NCBI RefSeq assembly: GCF_003992595.1
Contig: NZ_RZNA01000013.1
Span: forward strand, 1 to 64,000
DNA length: 64,000 nt
DNA from: Flagellimonas oceanensis
Lineage (GTDB): Bacteria; Bacteroidota; Bacteroidia; Flavobacteriales; Flavobacteriaceae
Reading direction: 5' to 3'
Shown here: in pieces, positions 20,101 to 28,490 of the stretch
Numbering within the stretch: position 1 is the stretch's first letter
How the letters are laid out: the number at the start of each line of letters is the position of its first letter
Translations under genes and position numbers: made by a program
Notes under the pieces: generated by a model
Databases searched by the model: none
The model's input: the letters and a program-made list of their open reading frames with translations, nothing else
Told to the model about the DNA's origin: nothing

Positions 20101-20856
20101 CTACTGGGAAATCTGTTTTTTCAACTCCTCCATCGATTCTTGAAGTTGTTTCAACAGTCCTGTTTCCGTAGTGGCATCCACATTAAACGTCAACTTGCTG
20201 CTTACCTCCCAAATTTCCTGTATCTGAAAGGGTTTGATTTCATAGGGCGGATAGGTTTCGTTTAAAGAAACCAATGTGACATTGTTGGAGTTGGGTTTAC
20301 GCTCAATTTTCTTTACCATAACAGAATCTTGCAACACCACTACGTACATTTTGTTCGGACTCACATGGTCGATATGCTCTATGGCACGGGCCAAAACCCA
20401 ATCATTGGGTCTTAAATTGGGCAACATACTATCTCCTTCTACCTGAAAACCACGATAGGTAGCGTTCCGAAACTCCGGAATGGGCATATCAAAAGCGGGT
20501 AACTGTTGGTACCAGCTCGTATCTGCAATGTTCTGTGGATAACCTGCAGCTGCTTTGGCATTAACCATTACCATGTTGTCGTTCTCGGAATTATCAACCG
20601 TGACCACTTTGGGAATTACACTGGTTTTGGAAGTATCCAGATGTTTTTGATCACTTTCACCAAACAACCACAACGGATTGATCTTAAATTGTCGGAGCAG
20701 CTCGGATACCACCTTTCCGGATAGTTTGGTCCTCCCCCGTTCTATATCGGCCGTGGTGTTCTTTACGCCCAATAATTTAGCGAACTCGGTTTGAGTATAA
20801 CCGAGTTCTCTACGAATATCGGTAAATCGTTTTAGGGTTATTTCATTTTCCATCAT
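20101..20856 (-). CDS. LexA-like self-cleaving repressor (XRE HTH + S24 peptidase)
   Basis: A 251-residue repressor. An XRE-type helix-turn-helix (about 8-60) is joined to an S24/LexA peptidase domain. All parts for self-cleavage are visible: an Ala-Gly scissile site in AAAG-YP (Ala104-Gly105), the nucleophile Ser143 in VEGDSM, and the general base Lys182 in VMVKKIERK. By analogy to LexA and CI it would cleave itself on RecA filaments and release its operators. Start codons ATG 20856 and 20853 are adjacent; a TTG at 20859 is less likely. It is divergent from the radical-SAM gene with four operator-like palindromes between them. Confidence 0.88.
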   Translation of the reverse strand: MMENEITLKRFTDIRRELGYTQTEFAKLLGVKNTTADIERGRTKLSGKVVSELLRQFKINPLWLFGESDQKHLDTSKTSVIPKVVTVDNSENDNMVMVNAKAAAGYPQNIADTSWYQQLPAFDMPIPEFRNATYRGFQVEGDSMLPNLRPNDWVLARAIEHIDHVSPNKMYVVVLQDSVMVKKIERKPNSNNVTLVSLNETYPPYEIKPFQIQEIWEVSSKLTFNVDATTETGLLKQLQESMEELKKQISQ

Positions 20857-20868
20857 CAAGTCAATAAT

Positions 20869-20898
20869 GTCATGTTGAGTACAATCGAGACATCTCGC
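20869..20898. repeat. Short interspersed repeat in the repressor leader
   Basis: This GTCATGTTGAGT...CGAGACATCTCG sequence resembles the interspersed repeats near 155 and 22.32 kb. Its end CGAGA-CA-TCTCG (20886-20897) can form a small hairpin. It lies in the expected untranslated leader of the repressor mRNA. Confidence 0.45.
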
Positions 20899-20940
20899 AA
20901 CTTATTTTTCACGAAAGCAATCAAACTGACAATCCATTCT

Positions 20941-20948
20941 CAAATATA
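20941..20948 (-). promoter_or_regulatory. Candidate -7 box for the XRE-S24 repressor
   Basis: On the - strand this reads TATATTTG, an exact TAnnTTTG match. Operator 1 (20955-20969) begins 6 bases upstream of the box, between where -7 and -33 would be, so repressor bound there should block its own promoter. Confidence 0.6.
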
Positions 20949-20954
20949 GAAATT

Positions 20955-21033
20955 TTGGAATATTTCCAAAAACTTTTATGGATTATTTCCATTATTTGGA
21001 TTATGTCCATATATTTGATTGGAATATTTCCAA
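20955..21033. promoter_or_regulatory. Array of four operator-like palindromes
   Basis: Four related 15-base dyads are seen: TTGGAATATTTCCAA at 20955-20969 and again, identical, at 21019-21033, with two variants between them, ATGGATTATTTCCAT at 20978-20992 and TTGGATTATGTCCAT at 20996-21010. The common core is GGAnTATnTCC. Start-to-start spacings are 23, 18 and 23, so the array itself is symmetrical. The outer copies sit on the two divergent promoters, and the fourth ends 3 bases before the radical-SAM start. This is what an autoregulated repressor with a divergent target would use. Confidence 0.8.
21010..21017 (+). promoter_or_regulatory. Candidate -7 box for the radical-SAM gene
   Basis: TATATTTG, an exact TAnnTTTG match, lies between operators 3 and 4 and touches operator 3. 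The expected transcription start falls inside operator 4, giving a leader of about 12 bases. Confidence 0.6.
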
Positions 21034-21036
21034 GTT

Positions 21037-22299
21037 ATGAATTTTGATAGGATACGTGAAAAATTGAACATATTGGCGGATGCTGCAAAGTATGATGTCT
21101 CCTGTGCCAGCAGCGGAAGTGATCGGACCAACAAGGGGAAAGGACTGGGCAATGCTTCCAAAATGGGAATTTGCCATAGCTACACCGCAGATGGGCGATG
21201 CGTGTCCTTATTGAAAATCCTATTGACCAATCATTGTATTTTTGATTGCGCCTATTGTGTTACCCGAAAAAGTAATGATGTTCCGAGAGCTGCCTTCAAG
21301 GTGCAAGAGGTGGTCGACCTTACCATCAATTTTTATCGAAGAAATTATATTGAAGGGCTCTTTTTGAGTTCTGGAATATTCAAAAGTCCCGACCATACCA
21401 TGGAACGCTTGGTTTCCGTAGCCAAAAAACTACGGGAAGAGGAAAACTTTAACGGCTATATCCATTTAAAGTCAATTCCAGGTGCAAGCGATGAATTAAT
21501 GTACGAAGCGGGGCTTTATGCCGATCGACTTTCCGTCAATATCGAAGTGCCCACCATTTCGGGACTCAAATTGTTGGCGCCGGACAAAAAGCACGAAGAC
21601 TTTACCAAACCCATGGAAAAGGTTAGGAATGAAATTGTACGCTATACATCCGAACGTAAAATCATCAAAAGTACCCCGAAATATGCGCCAGCGGGCCAAA
21701 GCACACAAATGATAGTGGGTGCTTCCGGAGAATCGGATAAGGATATTATGTATTCGGCGACCTATTACTACAAAACGTTCAATATGAAACGCGTATACTA
21801 TTCTGGCTATGTGCCCGTGACCCACGATTCCCGTTTGCCCGCCATAGGCTCACAAGTGCCCATGTTACGCGAAAACCGATTGTACCAAACGGATTGGCTA
21901 TTGCGATTTTATGGCTTTTCCATTGGGGAAATATTGAACAACCAACACCCCAATTTGGATATGGATGTGGACCCAAAGCTCTCGTGGGCCTTGCGCAACC
22001 TCCATCATTTTCCTGTGGATGTGAATACAGCCGATAAGCGCCTTTTGGCCAGAATTCCAGGTATTGGAATGCGGTCAGTTGATAAAATCGTAAAGGCCAG
22101 AAAATTTAGAAAACTGAACTGGGACCATCTCAAAAAAATCGGAGTGGCCCTCAACCGTGCCCAATACTTTATGGTTTGCGATTCCCGCCATTGGGAGCGT
22201 CGTGACCTGGATGCGGATAAAATAAAAGGTATGATTCTGCAACATTCCACTGGAAAGTATCGGAATCAACACAGTACGCAATTGTCGTTGTTCAATTAA
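21037..22299 (+). CDS. Putative DNA modification/repair radical SAM protein (TIGR03916-like) with HhH domain
   Basis: A 420-residue protein. The radical-SAM cluster motif is CIFDCAYC (Cys67, Cys71, Cys74; CX3CX2C). The C-terminal part has a helix-hairpin-helix DNA-binding motif (about 325-360, ARIPGIGMRSVDKIVKAR). This layout matches the family I recall as a predicted DNA modification or repair radical-SAM enzyme, always found with a partner of the DUF4130/TIGR03915 type; its reaction is not known to me. The ATG at 21037 is chosen because the earlier TTG at 21019 lies in operator 4. It heads an operon under the divergent LexA-like repressor. Confidence 0.88.
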   Translation: MNFDRIREKLNILADAAKYDVSCASSGSDRTNKGKGLGNASKMGICHSYTADGRCVSLLKILLTNHCIFDCAYCVTRKSNDVPRAAFKVQEVVDLTINFYRRNYIEGLFLSSGIFKSPDHTMERLVSVAKKLREEENFNGYIHLKSIPGASDELMYEAGLYADRLSVNIEVPTISGLKLLAPDKKHEDFTKPMEKVRNEIVRYTSERKIIKSTPKYAPAGQSTQMIVGASGESDKDIMYSATYYYKTFNMKRVYYSGYVPVTHDSRLPAIGSQVPMLRENRLYQTDWLLRFYGFSIGEILNNQHPNLDMDVDPKLSWALRNLHHFPVDVNTADKRLLARIPGIGMRSVDKIVKARKFRKLNWDHLKKIGVALNRAQYFMVCDSRHWERRDLDADKIKGMILQHSTGKYRNQHSTQLSLFN

Positions 22300-22316
22300 G
22301 AATTGACAATGATTTC

Positions 22317-22363
22317 ATCTCGAAATGTCATCCTAAGCGCAGTCAAAGGAGTCTTCGGGAGAT
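22317..22363. repeat. Interspersed repeat inside the repair operon
   Basis: The ends ATCTC (22317-22321) and GAGAT (22359-22363) are inverted, and the interior GTCATCCTAAGCGCAGTC matches the flavobacterial repeat type seen elsewhere in the window. It sits in the 87-base gap between the radical-SAM gene and its partner and could reduce expression of the second gene. Confidence 0.5.
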
Positions 22364-22386
22364 TTTATAACTAAAAAGCAAACGTT

Positions 22387-23163
22387 ATGAATGCTTCAAC
22401 AACATTAGTTTATGACGGTAGTTTTAACGGATTCTTGACCGCCGTCTTTGTTGCGTTTGATGAAAAAATCAACGTGGCCGACATACAAAAGAACAATCAA
22501 TCCCAAAGTGGTCTGTTTTCTGAAACGGAAACCGTTTTCACTCATGTGGATAAAGCCAAACGCGTTTGGAACGGTATCCGCAACAAGAGTCACAATGCCA
22601 TTTCCAATGTGTACTTTGCGTTTTTGAGTGAAGCGGAGGGTGTTGAAATGATGCTCTACACCTACATTCAAAAATTAATGCGCACCAAAAACGGCAAGTA
22701 TTTGGACTATTCGGACAGTACCGTGCTGTACATTGCCCAGTTGGCCAAAAAAGTGGGACGCGAAAAACATCGCATGGAGGCCTTTGTAAGGTTTCAATTG
22801 ACCAAGGACGAGATTTACTTTGCCAATATTGAACCCGATTTTGATGTGCTACCGTTGATCTCCAAGCATTTTCGGGATCGCTATGCCGACCAAAAATGGT
22901 TGATTTATGACATTAAGCGGAAATATGGAATCTATTACGATTTGAACCATGTGGAAATGGTATCCCTCAACTTGAAGGACATCCACCATAACAAAACGGT
23001 TAAAAGTGATGCCTTTGACACAGAGGAATATGAATATCAGACCCTTTGGAACGATTATTTTAAAAGCACCAATATTGCATCGCGTATCAATCCTAAATTA
23101 CATACGCAGCACGTACCAAAACGTTATTGGAAGTATTTGAGTGAGAAGAAAGAGGCGGTTTAA
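22387..23163 (+). CDS. DUF4130 / TIGR03915-like putative DNA repair partner protein
   Basis: A 258-residue protein with the family start TTLVYDGSFNGFLTAVF and family end HTQHVPKRYWKYLSEKK. As I recall, this family is the obligate neighbour of the radical-SAM protein just upstream; in many Proteobacteria it is fused to a uracil-DNA glycosylase-like (UdgX type) domain. Here it ends right after the DUF4130 part, so the glycosylase domain is absent. No signal or membrane segment is seen. It shares the operon and, by inference, the LexA-like control of the upstream gene. Its last base abuts the convergent gene at 23164. Confidence 0.85.
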   Translation: MNASTTLVYDGSFNGFLTAVFVAFDEKINVADIQKNNQSQSGLFSETETVFTHVDKAKRVWNGIRNKSHNAISNVYFAFLSEAEGVEMMLYTYIQKLMRTKNGKYLDYSDSTVLYIAQLAKKVGREKHRMEAFVRFQLTKDEIYFANIEPDFDVLPLISKHFRDRYADQKWLIYDIKRKYGIYYDLNHVEMVSLNLKDIHHNKTVKSDAFDTEEYEYQTLWNDYFKSTNIASRINPKLHTQHVPKRYWKYLSEKKEAV

Positions 23164-23774: not shown

Positions 23775-25523
23775 ATGGAACCACATAAACTTAGAGCAAA
23801 GCTCGGGGAGTTGGCTTCAACTTCCATCAGTGGTAACGACATCAGTTCTTCTTGCCTGTACGTCTCCGCTTTAGCCGTTTTACATGCCGGACAATATGCA
23901 TGGATCTCATTATTGATTGTCGGTGTCGTTCTTTTTTTATTTAGAAAAATTTACGGCGAAGTCGTCGGGGCCCTACCCATGAATGGAGGAGCCTACAATG
24001 CCTTATTGAATACCACCAGCAAAGGGATGGCATCTTTGGCAGCGTCCTTGACTTTATTGTCCTACATGGCCACAGCAGTCATTTCTGCCAATGAAGCCAT
24101 GGCCTATTTAAAAAATATCGTGCCCCAACTTCCCGTTATTTTGGCCACGATTGGTCTATTGGCTGTCTTTATGGGACTTGTCATCATCGGTATTGGGGAA
24201 TCCTCTAAAGTTGCGATTGCCATCTTTATTTTCCACCTATCTTCTTTGGTTTTATTGTCGTCCTTTGCAGGTATTTACCTTTTTGAACACGGGTGGGATG
24301 TATTTGCCGAAAACAACGCCCTTCCCGTAAAACACGGAGCGTTGCCCATGGCCTTGTTCTTTGGGTTTTCTGCCGCCATGTTGGGAATAAGTGGGTTTGA
24401 AAGCTCGGCCAACTTTGTTGAGGAGCAAAAAAAAGGGGTATTCCCGAAAACCCTACGCAATATGTGGGTTGTGGTTACTATTTTCAATCCCTTAATCGCC
24501 TTTCTGGCCTTGGCAGTATTGCCCATCTCTGACATTGAATCCAATAGTGAAGCCTTGTTATCCATCATGGGGGATCAGGTAAGCGGCTCCTGGTTGTCAT
24601 TTCTGGTTTCATTGGATGCCGTACTGGTGTTGAGCGGGGCAGTGCTTACTTCCTTTGTCGGGGTGTCAGGTCTAGTGGAACGTATCACTTTAGATAGAAT
24701 CCTTCCACCATTTCTTCTCAAAAGAAACAAGAACGGAAGTACCTATCGGATTGCCATAGTATTTTTCATGCTTTGCGTATCCATTCTATTGATTACCGAA
24801 GGTAACTTGGAAGCCTTGGCCGGTGTGTACACCATAGCGTTTTTGTCCGTAATGGCCCTTTTTGGCATTGGTAATATCCTGTTGAAAGTACGGCGAAAGA
24901 ATCTTCCGAGACCGGAGCGTTCAGGTTGGCTATCACTCTTGATTGCCATTGCTGCCGTAATCGTGGCCTTAGTGGGCAACATATTGCTCAACCCTGATTA
25001 TCTCGCTGTTTTCATGGAGTATTTTATCCCGACCATTGCGCTCGTTTTGGTCATGCTCAACAGAACAGCTCTTTTAAAATTGTTATTGCGTTTGATACGG
25101 TATTTTCTGGATCCCATCAACCGTTTTTTAGTGAAATCCTACCGAGGCATCAATCGGGTAATCGACCGCATCAACGACCAAGAGTTTGTATACTTTACCA
25201 AGAAAGATGATGTGGCCGCCCTCAACAAAGTGTTGCTGTACATCAGAAACAATGAACACACCCGAAAACTAAAGATCGTATCTGTTTTTCCTGAAGGGGA
25301 ACAAGCCACCGATAACTTCGTTTCTGATTTGAAAGTGTTGGACAGGGAATATCCGGAAATCAAAATTGAGTACATCCAATTACACGGGGAATTCACACCA
25401 AAATTAATCAAGGAATTATCTGATAAGTGGAACATTCCCATCAATTTTATGTTCATTGGAAGTCCTGGGGACAAATTCCCCTACCCCCTACAGGATTTGG
25501 GCGGAGTGCGGCTCATCATTTGA
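23775..25523 (+). CDS. APC-type amino acid permease with soluble C-terminal domain
   Basis: A 582-residue transporter. About 12 membrane segments fill residues 30-440, with the first-helix region (SISGNDISSSCLYVSALAV) and MNGGAYNALLNTTSKG loop typical of the APC superfamily (amino acid/polyamine/organocation). After residue 440 a charged soluble part of some 140 residues follows, with alternating strands and helices resembling a USP-like regulatory tail. The substrate is probably an amino acid. It stands alone between the Tudor-like gene and uvrA. Confidence 0.88.
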   Translation: MEPHKLRAKLGELASTSISGNDISSSCLYVSALAVLHAGQYAWISLLIVGVVLFLFRKIYGEVVGALPMNGGAYNALLNTTSKGMASLAASLTLLSYMATAVISANEAMAYLKNIVPQLPVILATIGLLAVFMGLVIIGIGESSKVAIAIFIFHLSSLVLLSSFAGIYLFEHGWDVFAENNALPVKHGALPMALFFGFSAAMLGISGFESSANFVEEQKKGVFPKTLRNMWVVVTIFNPLIAFLALAVLPISDIESNSEALLSIMGDQVSGSWLSFLVSLDAVLVLSGAVLTSFVGVSGLVERITLDRILPPFLLKRNKNGSTYRIAIVFFMLCVSILLITEGNLEALAGVYTIAFLSVMALFGIGNILLKVRRKNLPRPERSGWLSLLIAIAAVIVALVGNILLNPDYLAVFMEYFIPTIALVLVMLNRTALLKLLLRLIRYFLDPINRFLVKSYRGINRVIDRINDQEFVYFTKKDDVAALNKVLLYIRNNEHTRKLKIVSVFPEGEQATDNFVSDLKVLDREYPEIKIEYIQLHGEFTPKLIKELSDKWNIPINFMFIGSPGDKFPYPLQDLGGVRLII

Positions 25524-25628: not shown

Positions 25629-28490
25629 ATGATCAATTACGAAGAACATATTGAGGTTAAGGGCGCAAGGGTCCATAACCTAAAAGATATTGATGTTACC
25701 ATTCCACGGGAAAAATTGGTGGTGATCACAGGACTTTCAGGCAGTGGAAAATCCTCTTTGGCCTTTGATACCATTTACGCCGAAGGCCAACGAAGATACA
25801 TTGAAACTTTTTCAGCCTACGCCAGACAATTTTTGGGTGGATTGGAACGCCCCGATGTAGATAAAATTGATGGCCTTTCGCCTGTAATAGCCATTGAACA
25901 GAAAACCACTTCAAAATCCCCTCGCTCTACCGTTGGCACCATTACCGAAGTGTATGACTTTTTACGATTGTTGTTTGCACGTGCGGGCGACGCCTACAGT
26001 TACAACACGGGCGAAAAAATGGTGAGCTACAGTGATGAGCAGATCAAGGATTTAATCATTGAATCATACAAGGACAAGAAGATAAACGTGCTGGCTCCTG
26101 TTATCAAATCACGAAAAGGACATTACCGTGAATTGTTTGAGCAGATCGCAAAGCAAGGTTTTGTTAAGGTACGGGTCGATGGAGAGATTACCGACATTAC
26201 CAAAGGAATGAAGGTTGACCGCTACAAAACCCACGATATTGAGATTGTAATCGACCGCTTGAAAGTGGGCGATAGCGAAGATTTCCATAAACGCTTGAGC
26301 GAAACCATCAACACAGCGATGTACAGTGGTGACAATGTGCTCATGGTGCTGGAAGAAGGCGAATCGGTGCCAAGATATTTCAGTAGGGATTTAATGTGTC
26401 CGTCATCGGGCATCTCCTACCCCACTCCCGAGCCCAACACGTTTTCCTTTAACTCGCCGAAAGGCATGTGCCCCGAATGTAGCGGATTGGGCCACGTATT
26501 TCAGGTCAATGAGGATAAAATCATCCCAAACAAAAAAGTATCCATCAAATCAGGTGGGCTTGCTCCTTTGGGGGAATACAAAAAATCCTGGGCTTTCAAA
26601 CAACTGGAAACCATTGCGCAACGCTATAATTTTGACCTAACGGATGCCATTGAAAAGATTCCGGATGAAGCCATTAACGTTATTTTGAACGGTGGTAAAG
26701 AAAGTTTTGAAGTGGATTCCAAAAGTCTCGGCGTAAAAAGACAATACAAAATTGATTACGAGGGCATTTCCAACTTCATCAAAACACAATACGAAGAAGC
26801 CAACTCCACTTCCATAAAACGGTGGGCGAAGGATTATATGGACAAAGTGGAATGTCCAGCTTGTGCAGGCTCCCGCTTGCGCAAAGAGTCACTCTACTTT
26901 AAGATAGATGGCAAGAACATTGCGGAATTGGCTCAAATGGACATTGCTGAGCTCGCCGATTTTTTCAAACATCTGGAAGACACCTTGGAGGGCAACCAGA
27001 AGAAAATTGCCGAGGAAATCATAAAAGAAATCAAAGCGCGAGTTGGGTTTTTATTGGATGTAGGACTTGATTACCTCTCCTTGAACCGAAGCTCCAAATC
27101 CTTATCCGGTGGTGAGGCTCAGCGTATCCGATTGGCCACTCAAATCGGCTCCCAATTGGTAGGCGTACTCTATATTTTGGATGAACCAAGCATTGGACTG
27201 CACCAACGCGATAACGAACGTTTGATTCACTCCTTGGAAGCACTACGCGATATTGGAAATTCCGTAATCGTTGTGGAGCACGACCGTGATATGATCGAAT
27301 GTGCGGACCATGTCATCGATATTGGCCCAAGAGCGGGAAAACACGGGGGCGAGATTATTTCCGAAGGAAGTCCAAAGGAATTGATAGACCATCATACCAT
27401 AACAGCCCAGTATATTACAGGTGAGATGGAAATTCCCGTACCCAAAGAACGACGCAAGGGTACGGGCAAAAAAATCACGCTTTCCGGTTGTACGGGCAAT
27501 AACCTAAAGAATGTTACCGTGGATTTCCCTTTGGGAAAACTCATCGGGGTCACGGGTGTATCGGGCAGTGGCAAATCCACTTTGGTGAACGAGACCCTCT
27601 ACCCTATTATGAACGCCCACTATTTTAATGGCGTCAAAAAACCGATGCCCTATAAAAAAATCAAAGGGCTGGAGCATATCGATAAGGTCATTGACATTAA
27701 CCAATCGCCGATTGGCCGTACACCACGATCCAATCCTGCTACCTATACTGGGGTTTTCAGTGAAATACGGTCGCTTTTCTCCAAAACCACTGAAGCTACC
27801 ATACGAGGATATAAACCTGGACGGTTCAGCTTTAATGTGGCGGGCGGTAGATGTGAAACCTGTCAAGGAGGGGGACTCAAGGTCATTGAAATGAACTTTT
27901 TGCCCGATGTGTACGTGGAATGTGAGACGTGCAATGGCAAACGGTTCAACAGGGAAACCTTGGAGATTCGATACAAAGGCAAATCCATTGCAGATGTGTT
28001 GGAGATGACCATCAACGAAGCTGTCGATTTCTTTGAGAATATTCCAAAAATTCATCGTAAACTTAAGACAATAAAAGATGTAGGTTTGGGTTATATATCA
28101 CTGGGGCAGCAATCCACTACCCTCTCTGGTGGAGAGGCCCAACGCGTAAAATTGGCTACGGAACTCTCCAAAAGAGATACTGGAAACACATTTTACATCC
28201 TCGACGAACCGACCACAGGCTTACATTTTGAAGATATACGAGTGCTTATGGAAGTGCTTGACCGTTTGGTGGACAAAGGCAACACCATTTTGGTAATTGA
28301 ACACAATATGGACGTTATCAAAATGATGGATCACATCATCGACATTGGATATGAAGGTGGAAGAGGCGGTGGAACGGTTGTTGCAACGGGTACACCGGAA
28401 GAGGTCGCCAAGGACAAAAAAAGCTACACCGCTAAGTTTTTAAAGAAAGAATTGGACAATACAAAGCAAAAAATTAAACGCGCCGTTTAA
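25629..28490 (+). CDS. uvrA: Excinuclease ABC subunit A
   Basis: A 953-residue UvrA, the damage-recognition ATPase of nucleotide excision repair, acting as a dimer with UvrB. Both ABC modules are complete: Walker A GLSGSGKSSLAF at the N terminus and GVSGSGKSTLVNE near residue 645, two LSGGEAQR signatures, and the zinc-module cysteines (CETCQGG...CETCNG). It is followed on the same strand after 17 bases by a LOG-family gene and then the M1-like gene, forming a likely three-gene transcript. Confidence 0.97.
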   Translation: MINYEEHIEVKGARVHNLKDIDVTIPREKLVVITGLSGSGKSSLAFDTIYAEGQRRYIETFSAYARQFLGGLERPDVDKIDGLSPVIAIEQKTTSKSPRSTVGTITEVYDFLRLLFARAGDAYSYNTGEKMVSYSDEQIKDLIIESYKDKKINVLAPVIKSRKGHYRELFEQIAKQGFVKVRVDGEITDITKGMKVDRYKTHDIEIVIDRLKVGDSEDFHKRLSETINTAMYSGDNVLMVLEEGESVPRYFSRDLMCPSSGISYPTPEPNTFSFNSPKGMCPECSGLGHVFQVNEDKIIPNKKVSIKSGGLAPLGEYKKSWAFKQLETIAQRYNFDLTDAIEKIPDEAINVILNGGKESFEVDSKSLGVKRQYKIDYEGISNFIKTQYEEANSTSIKRWAKDYMDKVECPACAGSRLRKESLYFKIDGKNIAELAQMDIAELADFFKHLEDTLEGNQKKIAEEIIKEIKARVGFLLDVGLDYLSLNRSSKSLSGGEAQRIRLATQIGSQLVGVLYILDEPSIGLHQRDNERLIHSLEALRDIGNSVIVVEHDRDMIECADHVIDIGPRAGKHGGEIISEGSPKELIDHHTITAQYITGEMEIPVPKERRKGTGKKITLSGCTGNNLKNVTVDFPLGKLIGVTGVSGSGKSTLVNETLYPIMNAHYFNGVKKPMPYKKIKGLEHIDKVIDINQSPIGRTPRSNPATYTGVFSEIRSLFSKTTEATIRGYKPGRFSFNVAGGRCETCQGGGLKVIEMNFLPDVYVECETCNGKRFNRETLEIRYKGKSIADVLEMTINEAVDFFENIPKIHRKLKTIKDVGLGYISLGQQSTTLSGGEAQRVKLATELSKRDTGNTFYILDEPTTGLHFEDIRVLMEVLDRLVDKGNTILVIEHNMDVIKMMDHIIDIGYEGGRGGGTVVATGTPEEVAKDKKSYTAKFLKKELDNTKQKIKRAV

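Follow-up and report, generated by a model that had tools for sequence, protein, structure and literature searches.

A LexA-like S24 repressor, its operator array and a divergent radical SAM/DUF4130 repair pair under predicted SOS control in Flagellimonas oceanensis

Does a self-cleaving repressor that stands back to back with a DNA repair pair, with a cluster of operator-like dyads between them, serve that pair alone or the whole cell? The question is raised by a locus of Flagellimonas oceanensis in the 64,000-nucleotide stretch that we analysed (contig NZ_RZNA01000013.1, positions 1 to 64,000; hereafter the window), where an XRE-S24 repressor gene is divergent from an operon encoding a radical S-adenosylmethionine (rSAM) protein and then a DUF4130 protein. 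An earlier note on this DNA had taken the system for a small, private damage-induced regulon, separate from any LexA. We find that the S24 protein is most likely the cell's SOS master repressor, of the Bacteroidetes non-canonical LexA kind; the prediction that DNA damage controls the rSAM/DUF4130 pair is supported, the small and private scope is not.

The open reading frame (ORF) of the S24 protein spans 20101-20859 on the minus strand, with the ATG at 20856 or 20853 as its likeliest start, and a profile search placed HTH_3 (PF01381) in the N-terminal and Peptidase_S24 (PF00717) in the C-terminal part of the product. The full self-cleavage set that had been read from the letters stands: Ala105-Gly106, Ser144 and Lys183, numbered from the TTG and hence one higher than in the earlier note (Ala104-Gly105, Ser143, Lys182), are invariant in 15 aligned proteins, that of the window included. 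The protein is 96% identical to its [Muricauda] okinawensis and yonaguniensis counterparts, and the canonical LexA models PF01726 and TIGR00498 did not match it at E 0.001. As described in PMC8565304, cited here throughout from part of its text, phage-repressor-like S24 proteins run the SOS response in Bacteroidetes, and one group of them, mainly in Flavobacteriaceae, binds GGA-N5-TCC; gel shifts (electrophoretic mobility shift assays, EMSA) and mitomycin induction are reported for the class. Among the targets predicted there for GGA-N5-TCC are dinB with a DNA polymerase III alpha gene, a COG1533 radical SAM protein, a COG1573-COG4277 operon and COG2135 (SRAP). The window repressor resembles this class in its HTH_3 and S24 domains, its Ala-Gly and Ser-Lys residues, its Flavobacteriaceae host, the GGA-N5-TCC dyads at its own promoter and boxes at dinB-dnaE, SRAP, a COG1533-type rSAM gene and the COG4277 operon, and nothing that we found contradicts its membership. 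The regulator is therefore of a published class, to which this locus adds a clear example and not a new system, and its supposed separateness from any LexA falls away, the more so as the COG1573-COG4277 operon is itself listed in the regulon predicted in PMC8565304.

Four GGAnTATnTCC dyads lie between the divergent genes, at 20957-20967, 20980-20990, 20998-21008 and 21021-21031, with start-to-start spacings of 23-18-23 and with the same 15-mer, TTGGAATATTTCCAA, at the two outer positions. Against 0.46 dyads expected, a count of four was reached in 0/100 shuffles, which bears out the array as it had been described. The Bacteroidetes -7 box is TAnnTTTG, and a box of this type (TATATTTG) is present in each direction, although no good -33 box was found at normal spacing for the rSAM promoter. 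Dyad 1 takes up the spacer between -33 and -7 in the repressor promoter, and the rSAM -7 box has dyad 3 on one side and dyad 4 on the other; the two -7 boxes are flanked by dyads and not, as had been proposed, overlapped by them. As for the rSAM start region, which dyads overlap according to the earlier note, dyad 4 lies just upstream if ATG 21037 is the start and would lie inside the ORF if TTG 21019 is.

Across the 4.27 Mb genome single dyads gave 55 matches versus 37 for a reversed control, and thus single dyads carry little meaning and clustering is the signal. As most single-dyad matches fall inside ORFs, we limited the regulon search to double boxes, defined as two exact dyads at a spacing of 19 bp and no other, with a reversed control. 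Such double dyads occur in three places, against none in the control; one of them separates dinB and a dnaE-like gene from a divergent SRAP gene, and a second lies ahead of a PA0069-type radical SAM gene. We conclude from these two places that the operator is not private. A local repressor dedicated to the rSAM/DUF4130 pair and standing apart from the SOS master regulator might account for the four clustered dyads and for a third dyad that comes with the divergent gene, but these double boxes, the global role published for the class (PMC8565304), the two dyads kept in 14/14 named relatives with neither gene opposite (described below) and the finding of only one protein of this group in the genome make such a repressor very unlikely. 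The search for an S24 paralogue in the same genome found none, its sole other match being a 50-residue stretch at E 0.09. Regulation of the locus by a non-canonical LexA is a well-supported prediction for this host. Single dyads between script-called ORFs, which are possible further regulon members, were seen at C52:328754 (L055), C52:115734 (L052) and C50:27629 (L047).

The genome also holds one other S24-family match, a canonical LexA on contig C16 (C16:5247-5594; L093 1480-2103, minus strand), which scores 162 bits against TIGR00498 (cut-off 111), matches LexA_DNA_bind and reads Cys-Gly at the usual Ala-Gly place, in a stretch that looks AT-rich. This gene may be an acquired copy, since PMC8565304, in the text available, reports no LexA homologues in Bacteroidetes.

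Does the operator array follow the repressor or the genes opposite? The S24 protein was matched in 199/299 family genomes surveyed, and among the matches listed the identities split into those of at least 44% and those of at most 37%. A first set, comprising the window and 79 relatives out of the 113 with a listed identity of 44% or above (n=80), was taken with its upstream DNA; at least one GGA-N5-TCC lies within 420 bp in 78/80 of these loci, as against 0/20 of the sampled paralogues of about 30% identity (within 350 bp), which indicates that the motif tracks orthology. Exact CTAA-N5-TTAG was likewise absent from these 20 paralogues, which we use only as a negative control and not as members of the CTAA group. 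The gene opposite the repressor is the rSAM gene in 31 loci of the first set, a DUF4130 gene without rSAM in 24, dinB-dnaE in seven and another gene in 18; a three-dyad array (22 or 23, then 18-20 bp) was found in 25/31, 19/24, 6/7 and 0/18 of them, respectively. The dinB-dnaE loci are L150, L163, L166, L167, L168, L169 and L170, with an SRAP-like gene in between in L167 and L168.

A second set of 80 named loci, partly overlapping the first, was scored for rSAM absence within the fetched neighbourhood only. Conservation of the dyads in orthologous regions, on which the earlier note had staked its reading beforehand, was clear, with at least two dyads upstream of the repressor in 80/80 named relatives. 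The rigid three-operator array (22/23 + 18 bp) is present in 64/80: in 37/37 loci with rSAM opposite, in 27/29 with a lone DUF4130 gene and in 0/14 with neither, where the repressor nevertheless keeps two dyads. A fourth dyad occurs in 11/80, eight of which are titled Muricauda, Allomuricauda or Flagellimonas. When the window is included and the two lone-DUF4130 loci without the full array are left out, 64/65 array loci (37/38 of the rSAM type, 27/27 of the lone-DUF4130 type) have a repressor -7 type box at -16 relative to dyad 1, and all 65 have one for the divergent gene. The 14 loci with neither gene gave a repressor -7 match in four (at -16 to -18) and a divergent -7 match in one, elsewhere. 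Dyads 1 and 2 go with the repressor; dyad 3 goes with the divergent SOS gene and was seen only where there is one. We regard this fixed spacing of three operators, and the exchange of the gene opposite, as new, in that the main text of PMC8565304, as available, describes neither.

These surroundings also bear on the notion that the protein is the CI-type immunity repressor of a resident phage, placed beside repair genes by chance. Its N-terminal domain is of the phage-repressor type, and PMC8565304 argues for a phage origin of the class, but the similar neighbourhood in many genera, the conserved chromosomal position and the promoter-linked SOS targets leave this explanation hardly credible. 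A phage origin of this particular copy was also considered and set aside: a scan of viral contigs gave two relatives, a full-length one (L300, 63%) amid what we took by eye to be ordinary-looking chromosomal genes and a 56-residue match (L301). Arrays of the lambda CI type likewise place several dyads between the divergent promoters of a self-cleaving repressor; unlike them, the window array has other dyads and spacing, controls SOS repair genes and faces no Cro-like divergent gene in the window.

What, then, would the SOS repressor release at this locus? The divergent gene pair is as the earlier note had named it, with TIGR03916 scoring 670.7 bits for the first protein (cut-off 343.5) and TIGR03915 274.4 bits for the second (cut-off 112.25). 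In far exceeding these curated cut-offs, and in its order of rSAM then DUF4130, the operon matches the pair annotated as 'putative DNA modification/repair', which we found in Bacteroidota and Proteobacteria and whose NCBIfam and Pfam entries give no defined chemistry; SOS control of the COG4277 repair pair is reported in several bacterial groups (PMC8565304). It differs in that the second protein of the window lacks a UDG domain, whereas four second proteins from proteobacterial plasmids are annotated as UdgX family and are 467-481 aa long. The absence of a UdgX-type domain, noticed earlier, is thus correct at the locus, where a profile search of the 258-aa second protein found DUF4130 as its sole domain. 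The genome's only UDG-family (PF03167) match lies at C16:22262-22744 (L184), on the contig that also carries the canonical LexA. Mobile DNA can carry the gene, as TIGR03916-type matches were seen on 158 plasmid records, most commonly from Phaeobacter, Paracoccus and Azospirillum, and on 10 records of a phage collection.

At its C-terminus the rSAM protein reads QLSLF-Asn, with QLSLF at residues 415-419. The usual clamp-binding motif is QL[S/D]LF or QxxLF, and PolC has a C-terminal QLSLF, according to the part of PMC12309361 available. Such a motif lies within the last ten residues of 74/77 complete rSAM C-termini, some of them from genomes seen twice, and of 66/69 distinct C-termini once identical ends are dropped; the other three carry a similar form a little farther from the end. 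Four homologues from proteobacterial plasmids have QLALI, QLALF, QLSLF and QLSLI as their last five residues (QLxL[FI], 4/4). As a control, we examined 591 further closed ORFs of 150 aa or more in the named loci; 13 matched, all of them rSAM proteins missed by the filter, which leaves 0/578 with the motif at the C-terminus. Within the same regulon DinB carries QIDLF and the PA0069-type rSAM protein QVKLF. A literature search on this motif found nothing with the words radical SAM, and the rSAM protein gave one weak match in the PDB, to RuvA (E 0.0032, query 250-369). Its sequence makes it likely that the C-terminal QLSLF anchors the rSAM protein to the sliding clamp of stalled forks.

The fold of the DUF4130 protein came from models. 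DHH-superfamily proteins fill rows 1-43 of the best 50 structure matches with one model and rows 1-32 of the best 50 with another, RecJ and PAP phosphatase among them; we assigned some of these rows by known identity and others by title, and replisome entries were presumed to match through their Cdc45 chains. Sequence identity in the aligned RecJ/Cdc45 rows is 5-14%, and the sequence routes were silent: DHH proteins were missing from the PDB matches at E up to 10, and a direct phmmer search gave no match at E up to 1. We have good confidence in a modelled compact RecJ/Cdc45-like DHH-DHHA1 fold. By range arithmetic, D10 would correspond to the first motif-I aspartate of RecJ, and S12 and N14 would occupy the other two positions, the latter being mostly N and sometimes E or D across relatives. 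The matches to RecJ and PAP phosphatase and the placing of D10 would agree with an active DHH-type nuclease or phosphodiesterase; the residues at the other motif-I positions, the lack of a noticed DHH signature and the six metal ligands used by RecJ (PMC4846377, in the portion available) render an active enzyme improbable. In the model the metal site is probably broken, as in Cdc45, whose metal ligands are incomplete, and we give about even weight to a binding module that holds single-stranded DNA. DUF4130 is much shorter than RecJ, Cdc45 and PAP phosphatase and, unlike them, has an extra conserved tail linked to rSAM.

That link was apparent from the distribution of the two proteins. Each of the 76 genomes with TIGR03916 in the survey of 299 has TIGR03915 as well, and 26 more have TIGR03915 without TIGR03916 (E 0.001), one of them as a 45-residue fragment. 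All 26 unpaired genomes score lower for TIGR03915 than any paired genome, and in 17/26 the profile match ends at positions 188-201 of 243. On a tree of the S24 proteins, which holds 73 of 81 rows (eight were missed by the ORF filter), at least 10 changes separate rSAM and lone-DUF4130 states, and the strongest branches alone force 2-3. We then scored 19 residues (R125, H128, R129, F133, R135, R165, D168, E214, W221, Y224, R233, N235, H239, H242, P244, R246, Y247, W248 and K249) that were chosen knowing part of the data and scored on a larger, partly overlapping set, so that the score is not an independent test. After removal of near-identical rows there were 59 rSAM-paired proteins and 47 without adjacent rSAM. 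In the survey of lone DUF4130 loci L125, one of 24, gave no ORF for the residue comparison, and 12 loci from the phylum survey were scored as paired, 11 with rSAM in the locus and one (L215) with a same-strand rSAM gene some 3 kb upstream.

The set is complete in 58/59 paired proteins, the remaining one being cut by a contig end. Among those without adjacent rSAM, 43/47 keep 0-7 of the 19, and the other four keep 19 (L227), 17 (L266), 11 (L175) and 9 (L129). This gradation looks like stepwise decay after loss of rSAM. Four proteobacterial UdgX fusions beside rSAM are the reverse of the orphans, with 12-13/19 set residues and only 3-5/14 core residues in a loose alignment. The set, being complete with rSAM, mostly lost in orphans and largely kept in UdgX fusions, is a candidate surface for docking or for the substrate that serves rSAM alone, a reading that we favor on comparative grounds. 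One genome (G256) holds two DUF4130 genes, listed as a shortened match near the repressor (C1:739126) and a full-length one beside its rSAM (C1:3567391).

Could the lone DUF4130 genes instead be decaying leftovers, with relaxed selection as the only cause of residue loss? The graded loss (19, 17, 11, 9, then at most 7 of 19) and the tail, which is shortened in many, would suit this. Counted without selection, all columns with an identity of 95% or more among paired proteins are retained in orphans at a mean of 0.86 over 13 columns in residues 1-100, 0.47 over 10 in 101-140, 0.71 over 21 in 141-200 and 0.21 over 19 in 201-258. The high retention in residues 1-100, D175 and R178, which are kept in all 47, the open ORFs and an array kept in 27/29 named loci, all 27 with a -7 box, speak against wholesale decay, which we regard as unlikely. 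As the core, open ORFs, array and -7 box are kept, one function of DUF4130 seems to persist without rSAM.

We infer the following mechanism for the SOS repressor and its repair pair. In the undamaged cell, repressor dimers would sit on the array, with dyad 1 in the repressor's own -33/-7 spacer and dyads 2-4 around the rSAM promoter. On DNA damage, RecA filaments would trigger self-cleavage at Ala-Gly, and the repressor, the rSAM/DUF4130 pair, DinB-DnaE, SRAP and the PA0069-type radical SAM protein would be induced together. Binding and induction in this host would follow from PMC8565304, and cleavage from the conserved residues, all of which we consider very probable; the regulatory part as a whole, comprising the SOS repressor, the array and shared induction, is highly probable. 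The rSAM protein would then reach stalled forks via the sliding clamp through its C-terminal QLSLF, while a non-catalytic DHH-DHHA1 DUF4130 would hold single-stranded DNA and dock through its tail onto rSAM or the rSAM substrate. Docking might enable rSAM to act on a damaged base by SAM-radical chemistry, with no UdgX glycosylase involved, a step that we propose only tentatively. The composite of a clamp-tethered rSAM complex with a mini, non-nucleolytic RecJ/Cdc45-like subunit, two separable jobs for DUF4130 and a modular three-operator array is a similarly speculative possibility. The features concerned are collected in Table 1.

Table 1. Features of the repressor-rSAM-DUF4130 locus in window coordinates
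Feature	Coordinates	Strand	Basis or remark
XRE-S24 repressor, Bacteroidetes non-canonical LexA of the GGA-N5-TCC kind (most likely)	20101..20856	-	PF01381 and PF00717; invariant Ala-Gly, Ser, Lys
-7 box (TATATTTG) of repressor promoter	20941..20948	-	CAAAnnTA at -16 from dyad 1 in array loci
Operator dyad 1 (TTGGAATATTTCCAA)	20955..20969		Between -33 (20967-20970) and -7 of repressor promoter
Operator dyad 2	20980..20990		Dyad search; kept in relatives
Operator dyad 3	20998..21008		Full array only where a divergent SOS gene is present (loci examined)
-7 box (TATATTTG) of rSAM promoter	21010..21017	+	At +52/+53 from dyad 1 in 65/65 array loci
Operator dyad 4 (TTGGAATATTTCCAA)	21019..21033		Fourth dyad in 11/80 named relatives
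Radical SAM/helix-hairpin-helix protein, TIGR03916 (COG4277 kind)	21037..22299	+	Profile match; CX3CX2C cluster motif 21235-21258
C-terminal QLSLF of rSAM protein, sliding-clamp-binding-type motif	22279..22293	+	Consensus from PMC12309361 (part of text)
TIGR03915/DUF4130 protein, no UDG domain, predicted compact DHH-DHHA1 (RecJ/Cdc45-like) fold	22387..23163	+	Profile match; models
C-terminal tail of DUF4130, residues 201-258	22987..23160	+	Most rSAM-dependent residues; flexible, predicted local distance difference test (pLDDT) <50 at 202-215 and 239-258

Near the repressor/DUF4130 locus, at window positions 25629-28490, stands a gene that we take by eye to be uvrA-like, and such a gene is likewise found in several of 16 relatives. 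A single GGA-N5-TCC lies at 25469, 160 bp before it and within the preceding ORF.

The fold, the tail and the clamp motif are the parts of the repair pair worth specialist attention: the predicted fold, the clamp-type tail and the rSAM-linked residue set turn a pair of unknown function into simple bench tests. If the proposal is true, the DHH core of DUF4130 would have an ancient role on single-stranded DNA that is kept in SOS regulons after rSAM is lost, and the docking tail would decay stepwise once rSAM is gone. Dyads 1 and 2 would then serve the repressor itself, and dyad 3 would come with whichever SOS gene sits opposite.

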